From the NCBI GenBank assembly GCA_902624425.1, contig CACNXK010000009.1, forward strand, positions 1 to 33,878: DNA of 33,878 nt, in the 5' to 3' direction. Shown piece by piece: positions 9,991-32,524 of the stretch (its first letter is position 1; each line of letters opens with the position of its first letter). Made by a program: the position numbers and the translations under genes. Origin of the DNA: an uncultured SAR86 cluster bacterium (lineage in GTDB: Bacteria > Pseudomonadota > Gammaproteobacteria > Magnimaribacterales > D2472). The notes beneath the pieces are model-generated. The model ran no database searches. It saw nothing but the letters and a program-made list of their open reading frames with translations, and was not told where the DNA came from.

Positions 9991-11075
9991 GGAAATGGAA
10001 TTTTTGTGCTGGTCCCGCAGCAATTCCTGAAGAAGTACTAAAAGAAGCACAAAACGAACTCTTGGAATGGAACCTTTCAGGCTCTTCTGTTATGGAAGTT
10101 AGTCATCGATCTGATTTATTTGCAGAAATAGCGATGTCATCGACAAGAGACATTAAAGCTCTTTTAAATATTGGAGATGATCATGAGGTCCTTTTTCTGC
10201 AGGGTGGAGCGACTCTTCAATTTACTTCTGTACCATTAAACTTTGCAATCAAAGAATCTGTTGTAAGTTATTTAAATACTGGATTATGGTCAAAAAAAGC
10301 TATCGCGGCTGCATCAAAATATACCTCAGTTAATGTTGCCGCATCATCTGAGGAATCAAACTATACATATGTACCTAGTACTCAAGAATGGAGAGTAGAT
10401 TCAAATAGCATTTATTTTCATTATGTTATGAATGAGACAATACAGGGGCTTGCAATTCGTGATCCAATTTCATCTGAGATACCTGTTATTTGTGATATGT
10501 CTTCATGCATATTAAGTGAAGAAGTTGATTTTCATAACCTTGATCTTGTATATGCAGGTGCTCAAAAAAATATAGGCCCTGCTGGATTAACTTTAGTAAT
10601 CATAAAAAAAGATTTTTTAGAAAAAGCCAATGAAAATATTCCTGACATTCTAAGCTATAAAAAAATTAGTCAGGCAGGCTCCATGTTGAACACTCCACCT
10701 ACTTTTGCATGGTATCTCGCAGGTAAAGTATTTAAATGGCTTTTAAAAAAAGGTGGAGTAAAAAGTATTCAAAAAGAAAATGAAAAAAAAGCAAAGTTTC
10801 TATATGACTTTATAGATTCTTCTTCTTTTTACTCAAATCCAGTTAAGAATGAATATCGATCAATTATGAATGTTCCTTTTCTTCTTAGTGATGAAAATGC
10901 TGATTCTTCATTTCTTGAAAAGGCGGAAATAAATGGTCTCTTAAATCTAAAAGGACATAGATCAGTTGGAGGTATGCGTGCAAGTATATATAATGCTACT
11001 CCGTTTGAAGCTGTGGAGGATCTAGTTTCTTTCATGAGTGATTTTGAGAGAAGCTATACTGGGAATGGAAAATAA
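9987..11075 (+). CDS. serC: Phosphoserine aminotransferase
   Basis: 362 aa, class V aminotransferase. It converts 3-phosphohydroxypyruvate to phosphoserine for serine synthesis, and also acts in pyridoxal phosphate synthesis in gammaproteobacteria. The N terminus [14 protein letters not shown] and [11 protein letters not shown] are typical. The PLP Schiff-base lysine is K194 in [11 protein letters not shown]. The C-terminal [15 protein letters not shown] is the family end motif. The start overlaps the gyrA stop by 4 nt. gyrA-serC-pheA order is common in pseudomonads and relatives. Confidence 0.97.
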
Positions 11076-12147
11076 AGTAAAAGAGCTAAGAGATAAAATA
11101 GATGAAATTGATCTCAAAATACTTGATTTAATTCAATCAAGAGCCATTCATGCTTCCAAAATAGGTGAAATTAAAAAAGAATCTCCTGATTTTGATGGAT
11201 TCTTTTATAAACCAGAAAGAGAGAAAGAAATAATGGATAGGCTAACTAAAAGAAATGAAGGGCCTCTGAAGATAAATAATATAAGAAATGTCTTTAAAGA
11301 AATTATTTCTGCATGTCTTTCGGTTGAAGGTGAGCTATCCATATCCTACTTAGGGCCTGAGGGAAGTTTTTCAGATTCTGCCAAGAAAGATCATTTTGGA
11401 AGCTCTGTTACCTCAAAATCAGAAAACACAATTGAGGGAATATTTAAAAGCGTTGAGGCGGGAACCACAAATTTTGGCATTGTCCCTTTTGAGAACTCCT
11501 CTCAAGGGGTTATAAACACAACCCTAAATTGTTTATCAGACTTCAATATCCAAATCTGCGGAGAGACAATCGTTAATATTGAGCATCATCTTGCAGGAAA
11601 AAAAGATATTGAATTCTCACAAATCAAGCAAGTAGTTTCTCATCCACAAGCCCTTGGGCAGTGTTCAAAATGGATTGATAAAAATTTTGGAGATATTAGT
11701 CAAGTTCCAATGAACAGCACAGCTGAAGCAGCAAAGTTTGTAAGTAATAATAGTAACTGTGTTGCAATTGTTAGTGATTTAGCCATAGAAAAATATCAAT
11801 TACATTGTCTTGCAAGATCAATTCAGGATTTTAAAGATAATCAAACCAGATTTCTTGTAATAGGGAATTTCGAACCAGAGATTGCTAAAAAAAATAAGTC
11901 GAGTTTTTTAATAAGGACTGAAAATAAACCCGGAGCTCTTTTAGAAATATTAAAGCCATTTAATGAACACAATATAAATCTTTTTAGAATTGAGACTAGG
12001 CCATCTAGATCAGACAGAGGCTCTCATGACTTTTTTATTGATAGTGAAGGGCATGTCAATGAAAAAGAAATGCAACAACTCATTAAAAAAGTAAAAGCTG
12101 CGAGCAGCTTTATAAAAGTTCTCGGATCATACCCCTTGCATTCATGA
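11065..12147 (+). CDS. pheA: Bifunctional chorismate mutase/prephenate dehydratase (P-protein)
   Basis: 360 aa. It converts chorismate to prephenate and then phenylpyruvate for phenylalanine. An AroQ chorismate-mutase domain covers about 1-90 (LRDKIDEIDLKILDLI). The prephenate dehydratase domain covers about 92-270 (YLGPEGSFSDSA; the conserved Thr-Arg-Phe is in NQTRFLVIG). A C-terminal ACT domain (about 277-355) has PGALLEIL and IETRPSR, the phenylalanine-binding GAL and ESRP equivalents, so feedback inhibition by phenylalanine is expected. I chose ATG 11065, which overlaps serC by 11 nt, because it gives the usual N terminus. An in-frame GTG at 11038 would add nine residues with no family match. 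Confidence 0.96.
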   Translation: MENKVKELRDKIDEIDLKILDLIQSRAIHASKIGEIKKESPDFDGFFYKPEREKEIMDRLTKRNEGPLKINNIRNVFKEIISACLSVEGELSISYLGPEGSFSDSAKKDHFGSSVTSKSENTIEGIFKSVEAGTTNFGIVPFENSSQGVINTTLNCLSDFNIQICGETIVNIEHHLAGKKDIEFSQIKQVVSHPQALGQCSKWIDKNFGDISQVPMNSTAEAAKFVSNNSNCVAIVSDLAIEKYQLHCLARSIQDFKDNQTRFLVIGNFEPEIAKKNKSSFLIRTENKPGALLEILKPFNEHNINLFRIETRPSRSDRGSHDFFIDSEGHVNEKEMQQLIKKVKAASSFIKVLGSYPLHS

Positions 12148-21841: not shown

Positions 21842-21872
21842 AATAAAAACTCTTTAAAGCCTTTTTTTTGTA

Positions 21873-21878
21873 TATAAT
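21873..21878 (+). promoter_or_regulatory. Candidate -10 element before the kinase gene
   Basis: TATAAT sits 22 nt before the ATG at 21901 and just after a T8 tract (21862-21869) that might end transcription from tRNA-Cys. No good -35 is seen, although a TG lies two bases upstream of the hexamer, close to an extended -10. A transcript from here would have a leader of only about 10-15 nt with AAGAGA as its weak ribosome site. Confidence 0.4.
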
Positions 21879-21900
21879 ACAAATCTTTTTAAGAGACTTT

Positions 21901-22314
21901 ATGAAAATTTTAATTATGGGTCTTCCTGGGAGTGGAAAAACCTATCTAACAGAAAGACTTCAACCCCTGCTTGAAGCTGCATGGTATAACGCTGACAATG
22001 TAAGAAACATGGCAAATGATTGGGATTTCTCAAATGAAGGAAGAGCGCGTCAATCGAATAGAATGAGATGCTTTGCAGATTTTGAAAAAAATAATGGAAG
22101 ATTTGTTCTTTGTGATTTTGTTTGTCCCACAGCTCAAACAAGAAAGAATTTTAATGCTGATATAACAATATGGATGGATACAATTTCAGAGGGGAGATTT
22201 GAGGATACAAATAAAATTTTTGAAAAACCAAAATCTGTCGATTTTCATATAACAGAATGGAATGATAAAAATCATATTAATATTGCCCACGACATTAAAG
22301 AAAAATATGTTTAA
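21901..22314 (+). CDS. APS-kinase-like P-loop kinase
   Basis: 137 aa, shorter than CysC (about 200). Walker A is GLPGSGKT (7-14). ADNVRNMANDWDFSNEGR aligns with the DGDNVR and FSxxDR blocks of adenylylsulfate kinase, and FVCPTAQTRKNF with its FISPxxxxR block; DITIWMDT follows as in CysC. The C-terminal lid is reduced. It may phosphorylate adenylylsulfate or another small nucleotide-linked substrate. ATG 21901 is chosen over an in-frame TTG at 21868, because that TTG lies upstream of the TATAAT and adds a stretch without family match. It overlaps the following nucleotidyltransferase by 8 nt, so the two probably work together. The pair sits between two tRNA genes. Confidence 0.75.
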   Translation: MKILIMGLPGSGKTYLTERLQPLLEAAWYNADNVRNMANDWDFSNEGRARQSNRMRCFADFEKNNGRFVLCDFVCPTAQTRKNFNADITIWMDTISEGRFEDTNKIFEKPKSVDFHITEWNDKNHINIAHDIKEKYV

Positions 22315-22699
22315 TTGGAAGAATCCAACAGTTCAAATGCTAGGCAGATGGCAGCCTTGGCATGATGGGCATCAGGCTTTATTTAAAAGGTGTATTGAGA
22401 AAACAGGACAAGTTGTAATTCAAGTTCGAGATGTTCAAGGATCATCTGGAGGGATAAATCAAGACGATAATCCATTTGATTGGGATGATGTTTGCAAAAA
22501 TATTGAAGCAGGCTTACTAAAGGATGGTTTCAAGAGAGGTTTTGATTATGAAATTATGCTTGTACCAAATATTGTAAATATCTCCTATGGTAGAGGAGTT
22601 GGTTATGTGTTTGAAGAAGAAGTTTTCGATGATTCCATAACATCAATAAGCGCAACAAAAATTAGAAAAAAACTCAGAGATGAGGGAAAATTAAAATAA
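22307..22699 (+). CDS. Small HxGH adenylyltransferase-like protein
   Basis: 130 aa. GRWQPWHDGHQAL carries the nucleotidyltransferase HxGH signature at H19-H22, and ISATKIR (114-120) is the second nucleotide-binding motif, as in NMN and pantetheine-phosphate adenylyltransferases. The middle has FDWDDV and GRGVGYVFEEEVF. Similar short proteins are commonly labelled cytidylyltransferase-like or NMN adenylyltransferase-like; the substrate is unknown. The ATG at 22307 overlaps the kinase stop by 8 nt. The longer frame from 22262 starts inside the kinase with no family similarity. tRNA-Leu begins two bases after its stop codon region. Confidence 0.72.
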   Translation: MFNWKNPTVQMLGRWQPWHDGHQALFKRCIEKTGQVVIQVRDVQGSSGGINQDDNPFDWDDVCKNIEAGLLKDGFKRGFDYEIMLVPNIVNISYGRGVGYVFEEEVFDDSITSISATKIRKKLRDEGKLK

Positions 22700-22977: not shown

Positions 22978-23916
22978 ATGCAACCAGAACATGATAAAGA
23001 ATATTCAGATCATTTTAACAATGAGTTAGATCTGAAATTATTTTTTAATATTTTATTGCAGGGAAAATGGATCATAATATCTGTGACAACTTTTGTATCT
23101 ATTCTTGGCTTATTATTTAGTTTGTCCCTTCCAAATGTATATCAATCTAAAGCTCTTTTAGTTTCCGTCAACTCATCAGCTGATATTCCTGCAACATATA
23201 GCACTCTTGCAGGGCTTGCCGGCATTAGCTTTCCTGCAAACAGTACTGAGAATAACTCTTCAAAAGCAAAAGTAAAGATGACATCTCTTAGTTTTTTTGA
23301 AAATAATATAATGAAAAATATTTATCTTCCAGACCTAATGGCTTTTCAATCTTGGAACCATAAATCAAATACAGTGACTTATGATGAAAACCTTTTCGAT
23401 AGTACTAATGGAACTTGGATAAGAAAATATTCTTACCCTAAACAACAAATACCGACCCCCCAAGAAAGTTTTAAAGTATTTATTTCAAAGCATATAAGCG
23501 TGCGTGAAAATGTACAAACTGGATTTATAACTCTTTCGATCAAACACCAATCTCCATTTATAGCGAAGGAATGGACGAATTTAATAGTTGATGAAATTAA
23601 CAGTTTTTATAGAAAAAAAGACAAATTAGAATCAGAAAGGGCTGTTAGTTATTTAAAACAACAAATTTCAATTACTTCCTTATCTGAAGTCAAAGAAGCA
23701 CTTACAATGCTTCTTCAAGAAGAAATTAAAAAGCTCACTCTTATTGAAGCTAATGATTTTTATGTTTTTGATTATATAAATCCTCCCGCTGTAATGGAAA
23801 AAAAATTAGAACCTAATAGAGCCTTAATTTGTATATTGATATCGCTTATCGGTGGAATACTAGGTATTTTTATTGTGCTTATTAAACATTATGTTTTTGG
23901 TAAAAAAACTTCATGA
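22978..23916 (+). CDS. Wzz-type polysaccharide chain-length regulator
   Basis: 312 aa inner-membrane protein with the Wzz layout: a short cytoplasmic start, TM1 at about 31-51, a large periplasmic region with a coiled-coil-prone part near 215-260, and TM2 at about 282-303. VYQSKALLVSV after TM1 matches the Wzz domain, and the proline-rich entry to TM2 includes INPPAVMEKKLEPNRAL. There is no C-terminal tyrosine-kinase domain, so it resembles O-antigen Wzz rather than a BY-kinase such as Wzc. It would set the modal length of a Wzx/Wzy-dependent glycan. It is the first gene after the leader; a 94-nt spacer precedes ugd. Confidence 0.85.
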   Translation: MQPEHDKEYSDHFNNELDLKLFFNILLQGKWIIISVTTFVSILGLLFSLSLPNVYQSKALLVSVNSSADIPATYSTLAGLAGISFPANSTENNSSKAKVKMTSLSFFENNIMKNIYLPDLMAFQSWNHKSNTVTYDENLFDSTNGTWIRKYSYPKQQIPTPQESFKVFISKHISVRENVQTGFITLSIKHQSPFIAKEWTNLIVDEINSFYRKKDKLESERAVSYLKQQISITSLSEVKEALTMLLQEEIKKLTLIEANDFYVFDYINPPAVMEKKLEPNRALICILISLIGGILGIFIVLIKHYVFGKKTS

Positions 23917-23957: not shown

Positions 23958-24014
23958 ATGGATATTTCTGAAGTAAGCAAATATGTAATATCAAGATATA
24001 GGTTTAGAAATTGA
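23958..24014 (+). CDS. Possible 18-codon upstream ORF coupled to ugd
   Basis: ATG 23958 opens an 18-codon frame starting MDISEVSKYV and ending at TGA 24012-24014, which overlaps the TTG start of ugd as TTGA. The arrangement is the same as the coupled junctions elsewhere in the window and might deliver ribosomes to the weak TTG. There is no clear Shine-Dalgarno and no recognised similarity. It may equally be chance. Confidence 0.2.
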   Translation: MDISEVSKYVISRYRFRN

Positions 24015-25189
24015 AGAACAAAACAAAAATTACCGTTGTTGGTTCCGGATATGTAGGAATGTCACTCGCAGTGCTTCTTTCTCAAAATAATGAAGTTGTC
24101 GTTCTTGATATAGATGCTTCACGAGTTGAGAGTATTAACAATAAAAAAACCACCGTTGCTGATGAAGATATTCAAGACTTTTTGGCCAAAAAAGAACTTA
24201 GTTTAAGAGCAACTTCTGACAAGGAAACCGCATATAAAGATGCAAAATTTGTATTAGTTGCAACACCTACCAACTATGATCCTGATGCTGGTCAATTTGA
24301 TACGAGCTCAGTAGATGGTGTTATCAGAGATGCACTTAAGCACAATTCAGATGCTTTGATCGTCATAAAGTCTACCGTCCCTTTGGGCTATACTGAATCT
24401 GTCCAAAAAAAAACTAGTTCACCTAATGTGATATTTTCTCCTGAATTCCTTCGAGAGGGACAGGCTTTAAAAGATAACCTTTACCCAGCAAGAATTATAA
24501 TAGGAACTAAACTCAAGGCTGGAAAAGACTTTGCAGAGCTCTTAGCTCAAGGAGCTTATAAAAAATGTATTGAAGTTCTCTATATGAGCTCAACTGAAGC
24601 CGAGGCAGTAAAACTCTTTGCTAATTCCTATCTTGCAATGCGCGTATCATTCTTTAATGAGCTAGACTCCTATGCGTTATCAAATGATCTTGATACCGGG
24701 AATATAATAAACGGAGTATGTTTGGATGAGCGTATAGGTCACGGATACAACAATCCATCATTTGGTTATGGAGGATACTGTCTCCCAAAAGACACTAAAC
24801 AGCTTTTATCAAACTATGAGCAAATCCCACAAACGTTAATACAAGCAATCGTTTCATCAAACACTATTCGAAAAGATTTCATTGCCGATGAGATTATAAA
24901 GTTAAAACCAAAAATAGTTGGTTTTTATCGTTTAATTATGAAAGAGGGAAGTGATAACTTCAGATCCTCTGCTATACAAGGAATTATAAGAAGGATCCAA
25001 GCTAGAAATATTGAAGCTGTTATATTTGAACCAACATTAAGTGATGATAAGTTTCATCAAGTAAGAGTTTTAAGGACGATTGATGATTTTAAGAATATAT
25101 CTGATGTTATTGTAACAAATCGAATGGATAATGAGCTTGATGATGTCATAGAAAAAGTCTTTACACGTGATATTTTTAGAAGTGATTGA
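24011..25189 (+). CDS. ugd: UDP-glucose 6-dehydrogenase
   Basis: 392 aa, the short E. coli type (388 aa). It oxidises UDP-glucose twice to UDP-glucuronate. The NAD motif is VVGSGYVGMSLAVLL. STVPLGYT, then FSPEFLREGQAL, and the active-site FGYGGYCLPKDTKQL with the catalytic Cys at C257 are all present. The start is TTG 24011; an in-frame stop (TAG 24005-24007) just upstream excludes a longer protein, and the next ATG lies inside the Rossmann motif. It is distinct from the two later dehydrogenases by its FLREG and GGYCLPKD signatures. Confidence 0.95.
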   Translation: MKNKTKITVVGSGYVGMSLAVLLSQNNEVVVLDIDASRVESINNKKTTVADEDIQDFLAKKELSLRATSDKETAYKDAKFVLVATPTNYDPDAGQFDTSSVDGVIRDALKHNSDALIVIKSTVPLGYTESVQKKTSSPNVIFSPEFLREGQALKDNLYPARIIIGTKLKAGKDFAELLAQGAYKKCIEVLYMSSTEAEAVKLFANSYLAMRVSFFNELDSYALSNDLDTGNIINGVCLDERIGHGYNNPSFGYGGYCLPKDTKQLLSNYEQIPQTLIQAIVSSNTIRKDFIADEIIKLKPKIVGFYRLIMKEGSDNFRSSAIQGIIRRIQARNIEAVIFEPTLSDDKFHQVRVLRTIDDFKNISDVIVTNRMDNELDDVIEKVFTRDIFRSD

Positions 25190-25361
25190 ATAGAAATGGT
25201 TTTTTTTGTTTTAATTGCCCAATGATAGCTTTGACAACAAATATCAAAGTGGAAAAGAGGATATATAAGTGCTTTGTACTAGCTCACTCTTACATTGTTT
25301 TTGTTTAAGATAAGTTGAATTATAGCAATGTAAGAAAGAGAAGCATGGTAAAAGGAGAAAG
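25190..25361 (+). other. Intergenic region before wecB
   Basis: 172 nt without a confident gene. It starts with a T8 tract (25200-25207), which has no stable stem before it. A TTGACA at 25231-25236 lacks a -10 at normal spacing. Then come the inverted repeat (separate entry) and a strong Shine-Dalgarno, AGGAG at 25353-25357, four bases before the wecB ATG. A 28-codon frame (25222-25308) is probably chance. It is one of only two gaps of this size in the polysaccharide locus and could mark a second transcription unit. Confidence 0.5.
25288..25335 (+). repeat. 10-bp perfect inverted repeat upstream of wecB
   Basis: TCTTACATTG (25288-25297) and CAATGTAAGA (25326-25335) are exact reverse complements separated by 28 nt; the inner neighbours add a G-T and a T-A pair in RNA. 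The right arm ends 26 nt before the wecB start. It could be an operator for a dimeric regulator or an RNA stem in the leader. It has no T-tract after it, so it is not a terminator. Confidence 0.6.
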
Positions 25362-26498
25362 ATGAAAAAGATTTTATGTGTTTTTGGAACACGCCCAGAG
25401 GCAGTAAAAATGGCGCCACTGATAATGGCTTTAAAAGATAATAAGTCGACCGATGTAAAGGTTTGTGTATCGGGACAACATCGCGAAATGCTAGATCAAG
25501 TCTTGAAGTTGTTCGATATAAGTCCTGACTTCGATTTAAATATTATGCAACCAGACCAAACTCTTGAAGAGATAACATCAAAAATTATGAAAAATATTTC
25601 TTCAGTTCTTGAGAGCTATTCACCAGATATTGTATTGGTCCATGGTGATACGACTACTACTTTTGCTACCTCTTTAGCTTCTTTCTATAAGCAAATAGAT
25701 GTGGGTCATATAGAAGCAGGTTTAAGGACAGGGAATATTTATTCTCCCTGGCCCGAGGAAATGAATCGAAAGTTGACGGGAGCAATTGCAAAATATCATT
25801 TTGCACCCACTGAAACCGCTCGCAATAACTTGATTGCAGAGGGCATTAATCCCTCAAAAATATCAGTAACAGGAAACACGGTAATTGATGCTCTTTTAAA
25901 GGTTAATGCAATACTCAAAAATGATGAGGAATTAAGTTTAGAGATTGACAAGCAACTAAAAATTGATCGTTCTCGAAGATTGGTTGTTGTTACGGGACAT
26001 CGACGAGAGAGTTTTGGAGATGGTTTTGATAGGATCTGTCTTGCTCTTAGACGTTTGTCAATGCGGGACGATGTGCAAATTATTTATCCAGTGCATCTAA
26101 ACCCAAATGTTCTCCTACCAGTCAAAGAATCTTTGGACGCAAGAAAAAATATTGTTCTTTTACCACCTCAAGAATATAAACCCTTTGTTCATTTAATGAG
26201 CAGGGCTGATATCATCCTAACAGACTCTGGCGGAATACAAGAGGAAGCCCCATCCCTTGGAAAACCAGTCTTGGTCATGAGAGATACTACTGAACGACCA
26301 GAAGCTGTTCAAGCAGGAACAGTTAAGCTTGTTGGAACTGAGGTTGATAAAATTATTGGAGAAATAAGTCGACTCCTTGATGATGATCTATACTACAAGA
26401 CGATGGCTAGTTCTATAAATCCCTATGGAGATGGACACGCTTCAACGAAGATTATAGAATCTTTAAATATTTTTTGGTCATCAGAGAGTTCAAGTTAG
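25362..26498 (+). CDS. wecB: UDP-N-acetylglucosamine 2-epimerase (non-hydrolysing)
   Basis: 378 aa. It interconverts UDP-GlcNAc and UDP-ManNAc. The N terminus is VFGTRPEAVKMAPL. Family active-site residues are visible: D96 in VHGDTTTT, E118 in HIEAGLRT, E132/E133 in WPEEMNR and H213 in TGHRRESFG. TDSGGIQEEAPSLGKPVLVMR is the UDP-binding end motif. It has the best Shine-Dalgarno in the window. It overlaps the next gene, the UDP-ManNAc dehydrogenase, by one base, so the product is probably passed on to UDP-ManNAcA. Confidence 0.97.
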   Translation: MKKILCVFGTRPEAVKMAPLIMALKDNKSTDVKVCVSGQHREMLDQVLKLFDISPDFDLNIMQPDQTLEEITSKIMKNISSVLESYSPDIVLVHGDTTTTFATSLASFYKQIDVGHIEAGLRTGNIYSPWPEEMNRKLTGAIAKYHFAPTETARNNLIAEGINPSKISVTGNTVIDALLKVNAILKNDEELSLEIDKQLKIDRSRRLVVVTGHRRESFGDGFDRICLALRRLSMRDDVQIIYPVHLNPNVLLPVKESLDARKNIVLLPPQEYKPFVHLMSRADIILTDSGGIQEEAPSLGKPVLVMRDTTERPEAVQAGTVKLVGTEVDKIIGEISRLLDDDLYYKTMASSINPYGDGHASTKIIESLNIFWSSESSS

Positions 26499-27754
26499 TG
26501 CATAAATTTTCTAAAATATCAGTAATTGGTCTTGGTTATATTGGTCTACCAACTGCAGCAATGTTTGCTATTAATGGAGTAAGTGTTGTCGGGGTAGATG
26601 TTAATCAAGATGTAGTAGATATTATAAATAAAGGAAAAATACACATAGCTGAGCCGGGCTTAGATAAAGCTGTTTTTGAAGCAATAAATTTAAAAAACTT
26701 GAGAGCAACTTCATCTGCTGAACCTGCTGATGCTTTTTTGATAGCTGTTCCAACTCCATTTGAAGGTAAAAATAATCAGCCCGATTTATCTTTTATCAAG
26801 TCTGCAATAAAATTAATTGCTCCTGTTCTTGCAAAAGGGAATTTAGTAATTCTTGAGAGTACTGTTCCTGTTGGAACTACTTTCTCTATAGCAAAATTAT
26901 TAGCTAATTATCGTAAAGACCTAACTTTCCCCCAAAGCCATGGTGAAGATTCAGATATTAGAATTGCCCATTGTCCTGAAAGAGTTCTTCCAGGAAGGGT
27001 TATGGAGGAGCTGAAGACTAACGATAGAATCATTGGAGGAATGTCGGTAAAGTGCTCTAATGATGCTAAGGCATTATATAAAAAGTTTGTCACTGGTAAC
27101 TGCATCTTGGCCTCAGATCCAGCTGTTGCTGAAATGGCGAAACTTACTGAAAATAGTTTCCGAGATGTGAATATTGCCTTTGCAAATGAATTATCTATTG
27201 TTTGCGATGATCTTGGTATAGATGTTTGGGAGCTTATAAACCTGGCTAATAAGCATCCAAGGGTTAATATATTGCAACCTGGTCCAGGAGTTGGTGGGCA
27301 CTGTATTGCTGTCGATCCATGGTTTATAGTGTCCTCATCTCACAAAAATACAAAGTTAATTAAGGCATCAAGGGAAGTCAATGACAGAAAGCCCGAATGG
27401 GTATTAAGAAAAGTTAAGGAGAAAGTTAAAAAAATGCAGAAGCATTTAGGATCTGAGGCTAATGTTGTGATTGCATGCTATGGATTATCTTTTAAACCTG
27501 ATATTGATGATATTCGGGAGAGCCCAGCTATCAAGATTGCCAATGATTTATTAATGAGTTACCCAAGATCAGTTTTACTCGTTGAGCCAAACTTAGAAAG
27601 TTTACCTAGTGTTTTTAATGGTGAAACTTTAATAGATTTTAATGAAGCATCTGAGCGAGCAGATATTCACGTTCTGTTAGTTGATCATCAGGAATTTAAA
27701 AATAGAAAGCCAAATAAAGGCCTGATAATAGATACAAGAGGAATATGGTCCTAA
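26498..27754 (+). CDS. wecC: UDP-N-acetyl-D-mannosamine dehydrogenase
   Basis: 418 aa, compared with 420 in E. coli WecC. It oxidises UDP-ManNAc to UDP-ManNAcA. The NAD motif is VIGLGYIGLPTAAMFA. PTPFEGKNNQPDLS and ESTVPVGTT follow, then HCPERVLPG, and the catalytic GVGGHCIAVDPWF with Cys at C269. I chose GTG 26498, which shares its first base with the wecB stop (TAGTG) and gives the usual N terminus; a TTG at 26474 would add eight residues from within wecB. The pairing with wecB supports WecC over other nucleotide-sugar dehydrogenases. Confidence 0.93.
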   Translation: MHKFSKISVIGLGYIGLPTAAMFAINGVSVVGVDVNQDVVDIINKGKIHIAEPGLDKAVFEAINLKNLRATSSAEPADAFLIAVPTPFEGKNNQPDLSFIKSAIKLIAPVLAKGNLVILESTVPVGTTFSIAKLLANYRKDLTFPQSHGEDSDIRIAHCPERVLPGRVMEELKTNDRIIGGMSVKCSNDAKALYKKFVTGNCILASDPAVAEMAKLTENSFRDVNIAFANELSIVCDDLGIDVWELINLANKHPRVNILQPGPGVGGHCIAVDPWFIVSSSHKNTKLIKASREVNDRKPEWVLRKVKEKVKKMQKHLGSEANVVIACYGLSFKPDIDDIRESPAIKIANDLLMSYPRSVLLVEPNLESLPSVFNGETLIDFNEASERADIHVLLVDHQEFKNRKPNKGLIIDTRGIWS

Positions 27755-27755
27755 A

Positions 27756-29042
27756 ATGATATTTGAAAAAAAATTTCAAGATATATCTATTGCAGTTATT
27801 GGACTAGGATATGTGGGGCTTCCACTAGCTGTAGCCTTTGGAAATAAATTAAAAACAATTGGCTTTGACATAAATAAAGATCGAGTTGAATCTTTAATCG
27901 GTGGAAGTGATTGGACAAATGAAGTTGACCCAGACAAATTAAAAGATGTTAGTTCACTTTCCTACACCTCAGAAAAAAATGATCTTGTTGATTGTGATGT
28001 TTTTATTGTAACCGTCCCTACTCCTGTTGATAAAAATAAAGAACCTGATCTAGACGCCCTCAGATCAGCCTCAAAACTAGTAGGAAGCATAATGAAGACT
28101 GGCTCAATCGTAATTTTTGAATCTACTGTTTATCCTGGAGCTACAGAGGAGATTTGTCTTCCTATTATTGAGGACGAATCAGGCTTAAAAATTAATAAAG
28201 ATATTTTTGCTGGATATAGCCCAGAGAGAATTAACCCAGGTGATAAATCTAGATCCCTGGAATCTATTATAAAAGTAACATCGGGTTCTAACGCCAACTC
28301 TGCAAGTTTTGTGGATAAGTTGTATAGTTTAATTATATCAGCAGGAACCTATTGCGCAGAATCGATAAAAGTTGCGGAGGCTGCAAAAGTTATTGAAAAC
28401 ACTCAAAGAGATCTAAATATTGCATTAGTTAATGAACTCTCAATTTTATTTCGCTATCTTGATTTAGATACGGAAGCTGTCCTCAAAGCTGCAGAGACTA
28501 AGTGGAATTTTTTATCCTTTAGGCCCGGACTTGTTGGAGGGCATTGTATAGGGGTTGATCCTTATTATTTAACTTACAAGGCTAGAGAGGTTGGCTATAG
28601 TGCTGATGTTATACTTGCTGGACGTAAAATAAATGATGGAATGCCAGAATATGTTTCAAATAGGGTATTGCTTGCTATGCAAAAGAAGGGCATTAAAACT
28701 AAAGGAGCAAAGACCTTGATCTTGGGAGCAACGTTTAAAGAGAATTGTCCAGATATTAGAAATTCAAAGGCTTTATCGCTTGTTTCAGCTCTTAGAAACA
28801 AAGATATTGATACAGAAATTTTCGATCCAATTGCAGATTTTAAAGCCTTATCTAGTGAGTATAAGATACAAACAATTGAGGGATTACAATCTGAAGCATA
28901 TGATGCGATTGTTTTATGTGTAGCTCATGATTACTTTTGTGAGCTTGGTCTCAAAAAGATTAAAAGTTTTTGTAAACCAAACAGTGTTTTCTTTGACTTG
29001 AAATCAGTTTTTGATATTTCAGAATCTGATGAAAGACTTTAA
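27756..29042 (+). CDS. UDP-N-acetylglucosamine 6-dehydrogenase, TviB/WbpA type
   Basis: 428 aa. It likely oxidises UDP-GlcNAc (or UDP-GalNAc) to the uronic acid. The NAD motif is [30 protein letters not shown] and [13 protein letters not shown] are the TviB/WbpA forms of the family motifs, followed by [10 protein letters not shown] and the catalytic [14 protein letters not shown] with Cys at C264. Family members are TviB (Vi antigen) and WbpA (Pseudomonas O6). The next gene, a TviC/WbpP-type epimerase, is its usual partner and supports the assignment. It starts one base after wecC, and its stop is one base before the epimerase start. Confidence 0.93.
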
Positions 29043-29043
29043 T

Positions 29044-30075
29044 ATGTTAGATGACTTAGAAATAATACTTAATACTCCAAAGTCATGGCTTATTACTGGT
29101 GCAGCAGGATTCATCGGATCCAATATTGTTGAATACCTTCTGAAGCATGACCAAAATGTTGTAGGACTTGATAACTTTTCAACTGGTCACAGATCCAATA
29201 TAGATGAAATAAATGATTCGGTAACGGTATCGCAACGTGAGCGATTTAATTTTATTGAGGGAGATATAAAAGATTATAATATATGTCTTAAAGCTTCACA
29301 TAATATCGATTTCTGCTTACATCAAGCAGCTTTGGGGTCTGTTCCAAGATCAATAAGTGATCCACTGGCAACAAATGCCTCAAATATAACTGGATTTCTT
29401 AATGTTCTTTCAGCATCTAAGGAATCAGGAAATGCTCGCTTTGTTTTTGCTGCTAGCAGCTCGACATATGGCGACAGTGCGCAGCTGCCAAAAATCGAAG
29501 ACGAAATAGGAAGACCCCTATCACCATATGCAGTTACTAAATATGTGAACGAGCTTTATGCAGAAGTTTTCTCAAGGACATATCATATGGAAACTGTCGG
29601 TCTGCGTTATTTTAATGTATTTGGTGCCCGTCAAGATCCCGCAGGTGCTTATGCAGCTGTTATACCCAAATGGATTGCATCAATGATTAGAAATGAAGAT
29701 GTCTTCATAAATGGTGATGGCAAAACCAGCCGTGATTTTTGTTATGTTGAGAATGCCGTTCAAGCAAATATTCGGGCTGCACATATGGAGCTGAAAAGCA
29801 ATCACGAAATTTATAATGTTGCCGTGGGTCATCGCACTTCATTATTGGATTTATTTAAACATATTAAGCATAGTCTAGGTGAGCATGGCATTATTTATGA
29901 AAAAGAACCAATTTATAGAGATTTCAGGCCCGGTGACGTTCGTCACTCGCAGGCAAATATTGATAAAGCCAGTATAGAGCTTAAATATTGCCCAACTCAC
30001 AATATCAAGCAAGGTATTGCTGAGGCCATGCCATGGTATATTAGAAATCTATCAGCTAAAGAGCTGTCATCATAA
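29044..30075 (+). CDS. UDP-GlcNAc(A) 4-epimerase, TviC/WbpP type
   Basis: 343 aa extended SDR. WbpP and TviC interconvert UDP-GlcNAc(A) and UDP-GalNAc(A). The NAD motif is [40 protein letters not shown] and AASSSTYGD follow, with the catalytic YAVTK at Y162/K166 and [25 protein letters not shown] and the ending AMPWYI closely follow WbpP. Start ATG 29044 matches the length before WLITG in WbpP; ATG 29029 and an upstream start at 29011 would lie in the dehydrogenase gene. With the previous gene it should yield UDP-GalNAcA. Confidence 0.94.
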
Positions 30076-30087
30076 AAAATATGGTAT

Positions 30088-31767
30088 ATGTCAAAAATAC
30101 TATTACTTGGAAGTAACGATCGAGCTGCATTAGAGTTTGTTAGATCTCTTGGTAAAAGAGGATTAGAAATAGATATCTTGCGTTTCGGGCCTCCAACTAT
30201 TTGTGAGTACTCTAGGTTTTGTTCTAAATCTTATTTTTTTGGTAATCCTGAAAAAGATCTTACAGATTTTAATAAGTTGCTGCTGAAACATCTTCAATTC
30301 ATTAATTACGACTTAATAGTGCCAATTAATGATCTGGCCTGTGAAATTATATTTCAGAAGGAATTTAATGAATTTAATTCTAACAAAATAATGGGCCCAT
30401 CCAGTGAATGTTATGATTTTGCTCATGATAAAGCTAAGACTCTTGAATTATGTCGTCGCATCGGTGTGCCAACTCCTGATTCTTTGCTTATTTCATCTTT
30501 GTCTGAAGTCACTGAACATAAAATAGATTTTCCAGTTTATGCAAAACCACAGTTTTCAAGACTAATAAAAGATGGCGTTACTCATAATTTCCAGGTGAGA
30601 AAGATTAGTACTGATTTACAATTAGCAAATTTTCTTCGTGACAATATCTTGAATTGCGGTGTTTTGCTTCAAAAACAGATCTCTGGTTGGGGTATTGGTG
30701 TAAATGTTTTTGCTGTTAGTGGATCAATATTAGCCAAAACAGCAACTGAGCGCGTACATGAACCAATCAATGGAGGCAGCAGCAGTTATCGTCGATCGGT
30801 GAGAATAGATAAAAAGCTTGCGAAATATACTGAATTGATAATTAGTGAGGCTAAATGGACTGGACTGGCAATGATTGAGTTTAAAACAGATGGAGCTGAC
30901 TATTATGTTATGGAAATAAACGGAAGGCCTTGGGGGTCAATAGGAGTTCCAATTAAGTCAGGTATTGATTTTCCTTACATAGCATATTGTCATTTTGCTG
31001 ATATCAAAGATAAGCCTTTGATGAACTATTTACCTGGAAAGTATGGCCGAAATTTATATAGGGATATTCATTGGTTTTTAATAGAAATACGAAGTCTAAA
31101 GTTCATAAACGCATTAAAGTCAATTTTTAAAGGATTTTTTCGAATGATCTCAGGCAAAGAGTACATTGATGAGTTTTCATTAACAGATCCTAGGCCATTC
31201 CTTTTCTCTATAGTTCTAATTTTCCGTCGTTATTTTTTAAGCATATTAAAAATAAATAAGAATAATTTGAATAATGTTTCCAGCTCTAAAATATCTTTAC
31301 CCATAGAGCAAAAATCAAAAGTACTTTTTGTTTGCAAGGGTAATATTAACCGAAGTGCATTTGCTGAAAACTTTTTTAAATCAAGATTAGCTCACAATAT
31401 TTTAGTTGATTCCGCTGGTACTATGCTTAGAAGAAATAGGATGGCTTCAGAAGAAGCAACGGAAGTCGCATTAAAATTTGGTGTTGATCTATCACAACAT
31501 AAATCAAAGTCAGTTTTTGATTTAAACTTAGATGAATATAGCCACATTTTTGTCTTTGATAATGCAAATTATAAATTCATGGCAGATAACTTCTCCTTTC
31601 ATTTAAATAGAGTTTTTCGTTTAACTAGGGATAATGAAATTGATGACCCCCATGGGCTTGGATTAGAAGTTTTCCATTCGATATTCTCTAAAATAGATAG
31701 TGCTTTATGTTCCTTAGAGCTAAACTTAAAGGAGTCTAAAAATAAAAAAGGATCAAGTTTTGAATAG
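30088..31767 (+). CDS. ATP-grasp ligase fused to low-molecular-weight tyrosine phosphatase
   Basis: 559 aa, two-domain. The N-terminal part (1-110) is a pre-ATP-grasp Rossmann-like fold. The ATP-grasp fold (about 110-305) has K115 in HDKAKT, K153 in YAKPQFS, and metal-binding E264, E276 and N278 in MIEFK and MEINGRPWG. A basic linker (about 310-405) includes a hydrophobic stretch near 370-387. The C-terminal domain (411-545) is a low-molecular-weight phosphatase with C416 and R422 in VCKGNINRS (C-x5-R-S) and the acid D520 in DDPHG. All key residues of both domains are present. One possibility is ligation of an amine or amino acid to a uronic acid carboxylate, with the phosphatase acting on protein or sugar phosphates. 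Substrates are unknown. It overlaps the deacetylase gene by 8 nt. Confidence 0.85.
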   Translation: MSKILLLGSNDRAALEFVRSLGKRGLEIDILRFGPPTICEYSRFCSKSYFFGNPEKDLTDFNKLLLKHLQFINYDLIVPINDLACEIIFQKEFNEFNSNKIMGPSSECYDFAHDKAKTLELCRRIGVPTPDSLLISSLSEVTEHKIDFPVYAKPQFSRLIKDGVTHNFQVRKISTDLQLANFLRDNILNCGVLLQKQISGWGIGVNVFAVSGSILAKTATERVHEPINGGSSSYRRSVRIDKKLAKYTELIISEAKWTGLAMIEFKTDGADYYVMEINGRPWGSIGVPIKSGIDFPYIAYCHFADIKDKPLMNYLPGKYGRNLYRDIHWFLIEIRSLKFINALKSIFKGFFRMISGKEYIDEFSLTDPRPFLFSIVLIFRRYFLSILKINKNNLNNVSSSKISLPIEQKSKVLFVCKGNINRSAFAENFFKSRLAHNILVDSAGTMLRRNRMASEEATEVALKFGVDLSQHKSKSVFDLNLDEYSHIFVFDNANYKFMADNFSFHLNRVFRLTRDNEIDDPHGLGLEVFHSIFSKIDSALCSLELNLKESKNKKGSSFE

Positions 31768-32524
31768 GTTATCAAGAATATTTGAAGCAAAAGCTTCAAG
31801 TTTGTGGAAGAGAAAAATGTTCAGAGGTAATTTTAGGAAAAGTGGATGCGTGTCTTTCACCTTTGATGACTTTCCTATGTCAGCAGCTCAAAAGGGTGCA
31901 ACAATTTTAGATAAAGCTAATGTTAAAGGGACATTTTATACATCAGTTGGTCTAATGGGTTTAAAGATGTATGGAGTTGAAATGTTTAGTGCCAACCAAC
32001 TTAGAGCACTTATAAAGAATGGCCATGAAATAGGCTGTCATACATACTCTCACTTCGACTTCTATCAAGGAGGGCATTGTGCTTCTGGCTTAAATTTAGA
32101 GCTTAATCAGAATTTAATTGAACTACAAAAGATTGTTGGCCCTTATAGTATGCAGTCATTTGCATTTCCTAAGGGAAGAGTAACGCTTGCAGGTAAGACA
32201 ATTTTAGCGCGTAAATTTGAATCATGTCGAGGTGTTAAATATGGAATAAATTATCCAGGAGATGACCTAAATCAACTCAAGAGCGTTCCTTTATATGCTT
32301 CATCATTCAATGCTCAGCAGATATCCAAAATTGTAAAAGATGCAGTGGATAATCATGGCTGGTTAATTTTTTATACTCATGACGTTGGAGAGACAGTCAC
32401 TTCTCCATTTGGCTGCACTATTAAACAATTTGAGTTGGTACTTCAGATTGTAATTAATTCAGGAGCGCGTATATTACCTGTTGGGGAAATAACAAAATTT
32501 AACAGTTCTTTATCAAGTAAATAA
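31760..32524 (+). CDS. Polysaccharide deacetylase (NodB domain)
   Basis: 254 aa, carbohydrate esterase family 4 type. SFTFDDFP holds the metal-binding and catalytic Asp pair D36/D37; CHTYSH gives H94 and H98 for the metal. FAFPKG and LIFYTHDV are the later NodB motifs. No signal peptide is obvious, so it may act in the cytoplasm on lipid-linked or nucleotide-linked sugars. The start TTG 31760 has AAGGA seven bases upstream and overlaps the previous gene by 8 nt. An internal ATG at 31817 with GGAAGAG before it is an alternative that would remove 19 basic residues. Likely removes N- or O-acetyl groups from the cluster's amino sugars. Confidence 0.87.
   Translation: MNRLSRIFEAKASSLWKRKMFRGNFRKSGCVSFTFDDFPMSAAQKGATILDKANVKGTFYTSVGLMGLKMYGVEMFSANQLRALIKNGHEIGCHTYSHFDFYQGGHCASGLNLELNQNLIELQKIVGPYSMQSFAFPKGRVTLAGKTILARKFESCRGVKYGINYPGDDLNQLKSVPLYASSFNAQQISKIVKDAVDNHGWLIFYTHDVGETVTSPFGCTIKQFELVLQIVINSGARILPVGEITKFNSSLSSK

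Follow-up and report, generated by a model that had tools for sequence, protein, structure and literature searches.

A gene of an uncultured SAR86 cluster bacterium encodes an ATP-grasp ligase joined, in one reading frame, to a low-molecular-weight tyrosine-phosphatase-type domain (LMW-PTP). Both active sites are intact in sequence, both parts model as known folds, relatives of the fusion recurrently adjoin a CE4-type deacetylase gene, and nearly all carrier genomes tested encode a polysaccharide tyrosine kinase. What we infer from these observations is the reaction and the substrate of each domain, along with any coupling of the two sites. In the explanation that we favor, tentatively and with somewhat less than even confidence, the protein would be an amide ligase that decorates a polysaccharide precursor, works with the deacetylase, and is tied to a Wzb/AmsI-like phosphatase acting in most carriers likeliest on a kinase. 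Each domain is of a known kind, and the combination is apparently undescribed. The preliminary description of this DNA knew of no characterized enzyme with this architecture, and we likewise found neither a characterized example nor a description of it in the literature searched, a body of work outside which most subscription journals lie.

Domain architecture and active sites

The window, that is, the whole stretch of DNA analyzed, is one entire contig (C9, 33,878 bp) of a fragmented 963-kb assembly that is 78.5% complete. The coordinates of the fusion, its parts, and its neighbors are collected in Table 1.

Table 1. Features of the window in and around the fusion gene
Feature	Position	Strand	Remarks
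Wzz-type chain-length protein, 312 aa, without kinase domain	22978..23916	+	PF02706; only Wzz/GNVR and chain-length matches
Nucleotide sugar dehydrogenase, UDP-glucose 6-dehydrogenase-like	24011..25189	+	TIGR03026 over cut-off
WecB, UDP-GlcNAc 2-epimerase	25362..26498	+	TIGR00236 over cut-off
WecC, UDP-ManNAc dehydrogenase	26474..27754	+	NF008286 over cut-off
TviB-like UDP-GlcNAc C6-dehydrogenase	27756..29042	+	NCBIfam NF011729, E 2.9e-155, below cut-off
TviC-like UDP-GlcNAcA C4-epimerase	29011..30075	+	NCBIfam NF011728, E 4.9e-131, below cut-off
Bifunctional ATP-grasp/LMW-PTP protein	30088..31767	+	559 aa, ATG start, no internal stop
ATP-grasp ligase part	30088..31236	+	residues 1-383; Pfam ATPgrasp_Ter; structural alignment to 3vot, 4ffr
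Linker	31237..31311	+	residues 384-408; pLDDT <50 at 392-400 (AlphaFold2)
LMW-PTP part	31312..31722	+	residues 409-545; C416-x5-R422-S423, D520-P521; Pfam LMWPc
CE4-type polysaccharide deacetylase (HfsH-like)	31760..32524	+	Pfam Polysacc_deac_1, E 7.2e-15
Membrane-protein-like ORF, open at contig end	32632..33876	+	no Pfam match

Pfam detects ATPgrasp_Ter and LMWPc in the fusion, each above its curated cut-off, and no NCBIfam model reaches its own. The AlphaFold2 model, built with 50 homologues, has a mean pLDDT of 90.2 and a pTM of 0.84. The linker between the two parts is predicted to be flexible. The earlier claim of two domains with complete sites in one unbroken frame is borne out by the Pfam matches and by residues that are invariant in 50 aligned fusions. 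This conservation supports, short of proof, the view that both active sites work.

The ATPgrasp_Ter match covers residues 193-305 (E = 4.4e-09). By Foldseek and VIA-align, residues 1-385 group with PurK, PurT, an L-amino acid ligase, PylC, and the structure 2pn1, at 9-18% identity. VIA-align superposes the L-amino acid ligase (PDB code 3vot) with Z 27.1, rmsd 3.8, and 335 residues aligned; PylC (PDB code 4ffr) with Z 26.2, rmsd 2.9, and 288 aligned; and 2pn1 with Z 25.9, rmsd 3.1, and 286 aligned. The fusion shares with these three proteins the fold over residues 1-385 (Z 26-27) and the ATP-grasp catalytic residues, but is only 13-18% identical to them, stands in another context, and carries a C-terminal phosphatase domain. 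Two hallmarks of ATP-grasp carboxylate-amine ligases, the fold and the ATP/Mg-binding Lys, Glu, and Asn residues, are present, with K115, K153, S157, E264, E276, N278, and R280 invariant in the 50 aligned fusions. At position 220, the window fusion has Thr and 48 of the 50 have His. The modeled fold says that the enzyme would be of the carboxylate-amine ligase type; a fold does not give the substrate. In ATP-grasp trees, which were built by a quick method only and do not fix the number of fusion events, the fusions do not form one clade, and the window sequence sits on a long branch.

The phosphatase part has three sequence features of an LMW-PTP: a profile match (LMWPc, PF01451; residues 412-540, E = 1.9e-18, 67.5 bits versus a cut-off of 23.2), the C-x5-R-S loop, and the DP acid. 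C416, G418, N419, I420, R422, S423, D520, and P521 are invariant in the 50 aligned fusions, and the residue after DP is H522 in the window fusion and Tyr in 40 of the 50. When the phosphatase part of the family profile was compared with the PDB, E. coli Wzb (2fek) ranked first (E = 5.6e-36) and AmsI (4d74) third. This ranking argues for a Wzb-like phosphatase, as does the invariant I420, at whose position the arginine phosphatase YwlE has Thr. LMW-PTPs favor aryl phosphates. Wzb and AmsI share with the fusion the C-x5-R-S and DP motifs and an occurrence in polysaccharide loci, but they are stand-alone proteins encoded beside a Wzc-type kinase, whereas here the phosphatase is joined to a ligase.

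Two other readings of this part were considered and rejected. An arsenate reductase is disfavored by the weak ArsC matches and by the family profile, which places Wzb-type phosphatases far above. A housekeeping phosphatase recruited from the same genome as the source does not agree with the separate LMW-PTPs of the window genome and its relatives, which group apart from the fusions; the pairing of the window's long branch with a dnaQ-linked phosphatase is probably long-branch attraction.

Occurrence of the fusion

Protein searches recovered full-length fusions from a 398-genome phylum sample, three genomes in addition to the window's, and from plasmids of Vibrio alfacsensis, where the gene lies in an XrtA/PEP-CTERM polysaccharide region and is annotated only as an ATP-grasp domain-containing protein. 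Scanning of genome contigs with a five-sequence alignment confirmed 256 relatives, the best 80 of which were kept, and 84 loci were examined with these. Both domains lie in one ORF in 83 of the 84, isolate genomes among them, a proportion that was obtained with a fusion query and the best 80 of 256 relatives and is thus no estimate of the fusion frequency among all ATP-grasp relatives. Relatives with the ligase alone occur in haloarchaea and Pseudomonadota, and in Nitrospira defluvii (9992-11785 of locus L100) the two domains are adjacent ORFs of 399 and 197 residues.

The preliminary description would have been overturned by homologues that are consistently two genes; the single frame in 83 of the 84 loci speaks to the opposite, and the fusion is therefore neither a chance product nor a sequencing join. 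An artificial joining of two genes during sequencing or assembly, to which only the fragmented, incomplete state of the assembly lends itself, is hardly conceivable. By record title or taxonomy, carriers belong to the Pseudomonadota, Nitrospirota, Planctomycetota, Acidobacteriota, Myxococcota, Verrucomicrobiota, Actinomycetota, Bacillota, and Armatimonadota. Since it occurs in Pseudomonadota and eight or more further named phyla, the architecture is not the rarity that was first implied. A viral origin was also rejected: no relative was present in viral contigs, and phage records gave one weak, unannotated match.

Some relatives carry further domains. In L104 (2896-5733), a FemAB-like acetyltransferase-fold domain, the ATP-grasp part, and the LMW-PTP part form one 946-residue protein in a single frame, and in L087 (3593-6433) and L102 (3823-6528) the fusion is followed C-terminally by XrtA-associated hydrolase 1 or 2.

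Deacetylase neighbor and proposed mechanism

In the window, the fusion gene shares its last 8 bp with the listed start of the CE4-type deacetylase gene. Its product matches the HfsH model below cut-off (E = 2.1e-44) and an HMM of the deacetylases neighboring other fusions (E = 2e-11). Among the 84 examined loci (with the best 80 of 256 relatives), 33 have a CE4-type gene that lies no more than 200 bp from the fusion and runs in its direction, and 51, some of them on short contigs, have no immediately adjoining one; the loci are partly related, so that counts across them are not independent. By strict gene order, 28 of 82 loci have a CE4 gene next to the fusion, versus 38 of 768 for the other genes there. 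The adjoining genes fall into two subfamilies, either side of the fusion: upstream in many Nitrospirota, Acidobacteriota, Planctomycetota, and Mycobacterium, and downstream in Vibrionaceae and Alteromonadaceae. One deacetylase subfamily (cluster 7) lacks a Pfam match and was named deacetylase-like from motifs by eye.

This adjacency points to an amino-sugar nitrogen as the target of the ligase. In the mechanism that we favor, the ATP-grasp domain would spend ATP to convert a carboxylate to its acyl phosphate and would then join it to an amine, so that a sugar nucleotide or a lipid-linked precursor acquires an amide decoration. The CE4-type deacetylase, acting in the same series of steps, would most likely deacetylate an N-acetylated sugar and so expose the amino group that the ligase would re-acylate. 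The C-terminal phosphatase domain, presumably active and Wzb/AmsI-like, would remain tied to the ligase, and its likeliest target in most carriers would be phosphotyrosine on the polysaccharide tyrosine kinase of the same genome. Decoration and export control would thereby reside on one protein. That the family as a whole is bifunctional, decorating a deacetylase-exposed amine with an amide and removing an assembly-gating phosphate, and in this way couples decoration with polymer export, is an unlikely extension.

Alternative functions and the kinase question

The genes directly upstream of the fusion suit a different substrate. Three nucleotide sugar dehydrogenases, with WecB between the first two (24011-29042), suggest a polymer rich in uronic acids, and since the window's neighbors make uronic acids, a carboxylate on the sugar is favored here. 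The ligase might join a uronic acid (GalNAcA, ManNAcA, or GlcA), through its C6 carboxylate, to a phosphorylated amine, with the phosphatase domain then stripping the phosphate, a scenario we regard as possible but doubtful. Besides the dehydrogenases and the TviC/WecB-like epimerases, it can draw on the capsule of C. jejuni, in which ligation and dephosphorylation are paired on separate proteins: amidoligase Cj1438C uses serinol-P or ethanolamine-P, and phosphatase Cj1435 hydrolyses off the phosphate (PMC11800379). The pair resembles the fusion in combining an ATP-grasp amide ligase with a phosphatase in capsule synthesis; however, Cj1438C is of the TupA-like ATP-grasp type and Cj1435 is a HAD enzyme, which weakens the analogy. 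Marine bacteria do make amides of uronic acids, such as the GalNAcA-D-Ala capsule of Microbulbifer (PMC3210612). The lack of a detected tyrosine kinase in the window's genus would also fit.

The polysaccharide locus recognized in the preliminary description stands, but its suggestion of uronic-acid amidation does not hold as a rule for the family: UDP-sugar dehydrogenases lie within ∼10 kb of the fusion in only 6 of the 84 examined loci (with the best 80 of 256 relatives), compared with the 33 that have an adjoining CE4 gene. The proximity of the phosphatase to Wzb and AmsI, together with the aryl phosphate preference of LMW-PTPs, also speaks against a phosphorylated amine.

Alternatively, the protein may consist of two independent enzymes of one pathway that were fused for co-expression and whose sites are functionally uncoupled. 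The flexible linker would allow this, as would the adjacent genes of N. defluvii and two loci in which the domains are separate genes (L123, 6884-10917, and L124, 7102-11353; genomes G170 and G376). In both, a ligase-only ATP-grasp gene touches a CE4 gene, and a separate LMW-PTP gene lies ∼1-1.5 kb off in the same polysaccharide locus; one of the two also holds an XrtA-associated tyrosine kinase. The maintenance of the fusion across many phyla argues against such independence, which we consider improbable.

In the favored mechanism, the likeliest phosphatase target in most carriers is a kinase. Of 45 fusion-bearing genomes tested, 44 have a TIGR01007 match of E 1e-20 or better, and the 45th has an XrtA-type kinase match (3e-48) below cut-off; the background is 136 of 199 phylum genomes, a set that differs from the fusion genomes in phylum make-up. 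In many gammaproteobacterial carriers, the kinase gene is 20-45 kb from the fusion, in some without another LMW-PTP nearby and in others with one; in several genomes of Halieaceae and Porticoccus, that gene region also encodes a stand-alone LMW-PTP. The BY-kinase found in nearly all fusion genomes tested keeps a classical phosphatase role possible for the family, with none found in the window's genus. There, no polysaccharide tyrosine kinase exceeds the cut-off in the window genome (G000, 78.5% complete) or in nine congeners, so that the kinase suggested as the phosphatase target in most carriers may be missing here. As the preliminary description had stated, the local Wzz has no kinase domain either. 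The phosphatase target is the weakest step: a kinase is plausible in most carriers, and nothing in the window's lineage supports one.

The frequency of BY-kinases in carrier genomes, and their distance from the fusion in gammaproteobacteria, would also suit a regulatory protein whose phosphatase controls the tyrosine kinase and whose ATP-grasp part serves mainly as a scaffold or else modifies a protein, be it the kinase or a different one. The invariance of all ATP-grasp catalytic residues and the deacetylase partner kept by ligase-only relatives make this quite improbable.

Many gammaproteobacterial relatives sit in XrtA/PEP-CTERM exopolysaccharide loci, and XrtA-associated families were matched near relatives of the fusion. 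None exceeds its cut-off among the window proteins tested, on a contig that ends inside the locus. The last ORF of the contig (Table 1) could be a polymerase. Ahead of the capsule genes (21868-22699) are two small overlapping ORFs, one for an APS-kinase-like P-loop protein (PF01583, E = 2.3e-07) and one of 145 residues that has the look of a nucleotidyltransferase in sequence and no Pfam match.

Amide and N-acyl decorations are common in bacterial surface polysaccharides, and few of the enzymes responsible are known. The fusion belongs to a family of surface-polysaccharide loci that is widespread and seemingly undescribed. The conserved fusion and its recurring deacetylase neighbor offer a starting point for tests in many genomes, among them those of cultivable Vibrio, Photobacterium, and Alteromonas strains. 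They also pose the question of what purpose is served by linking a tyrosine-phosphatase-type domain to an enzyme that modifies sugars.
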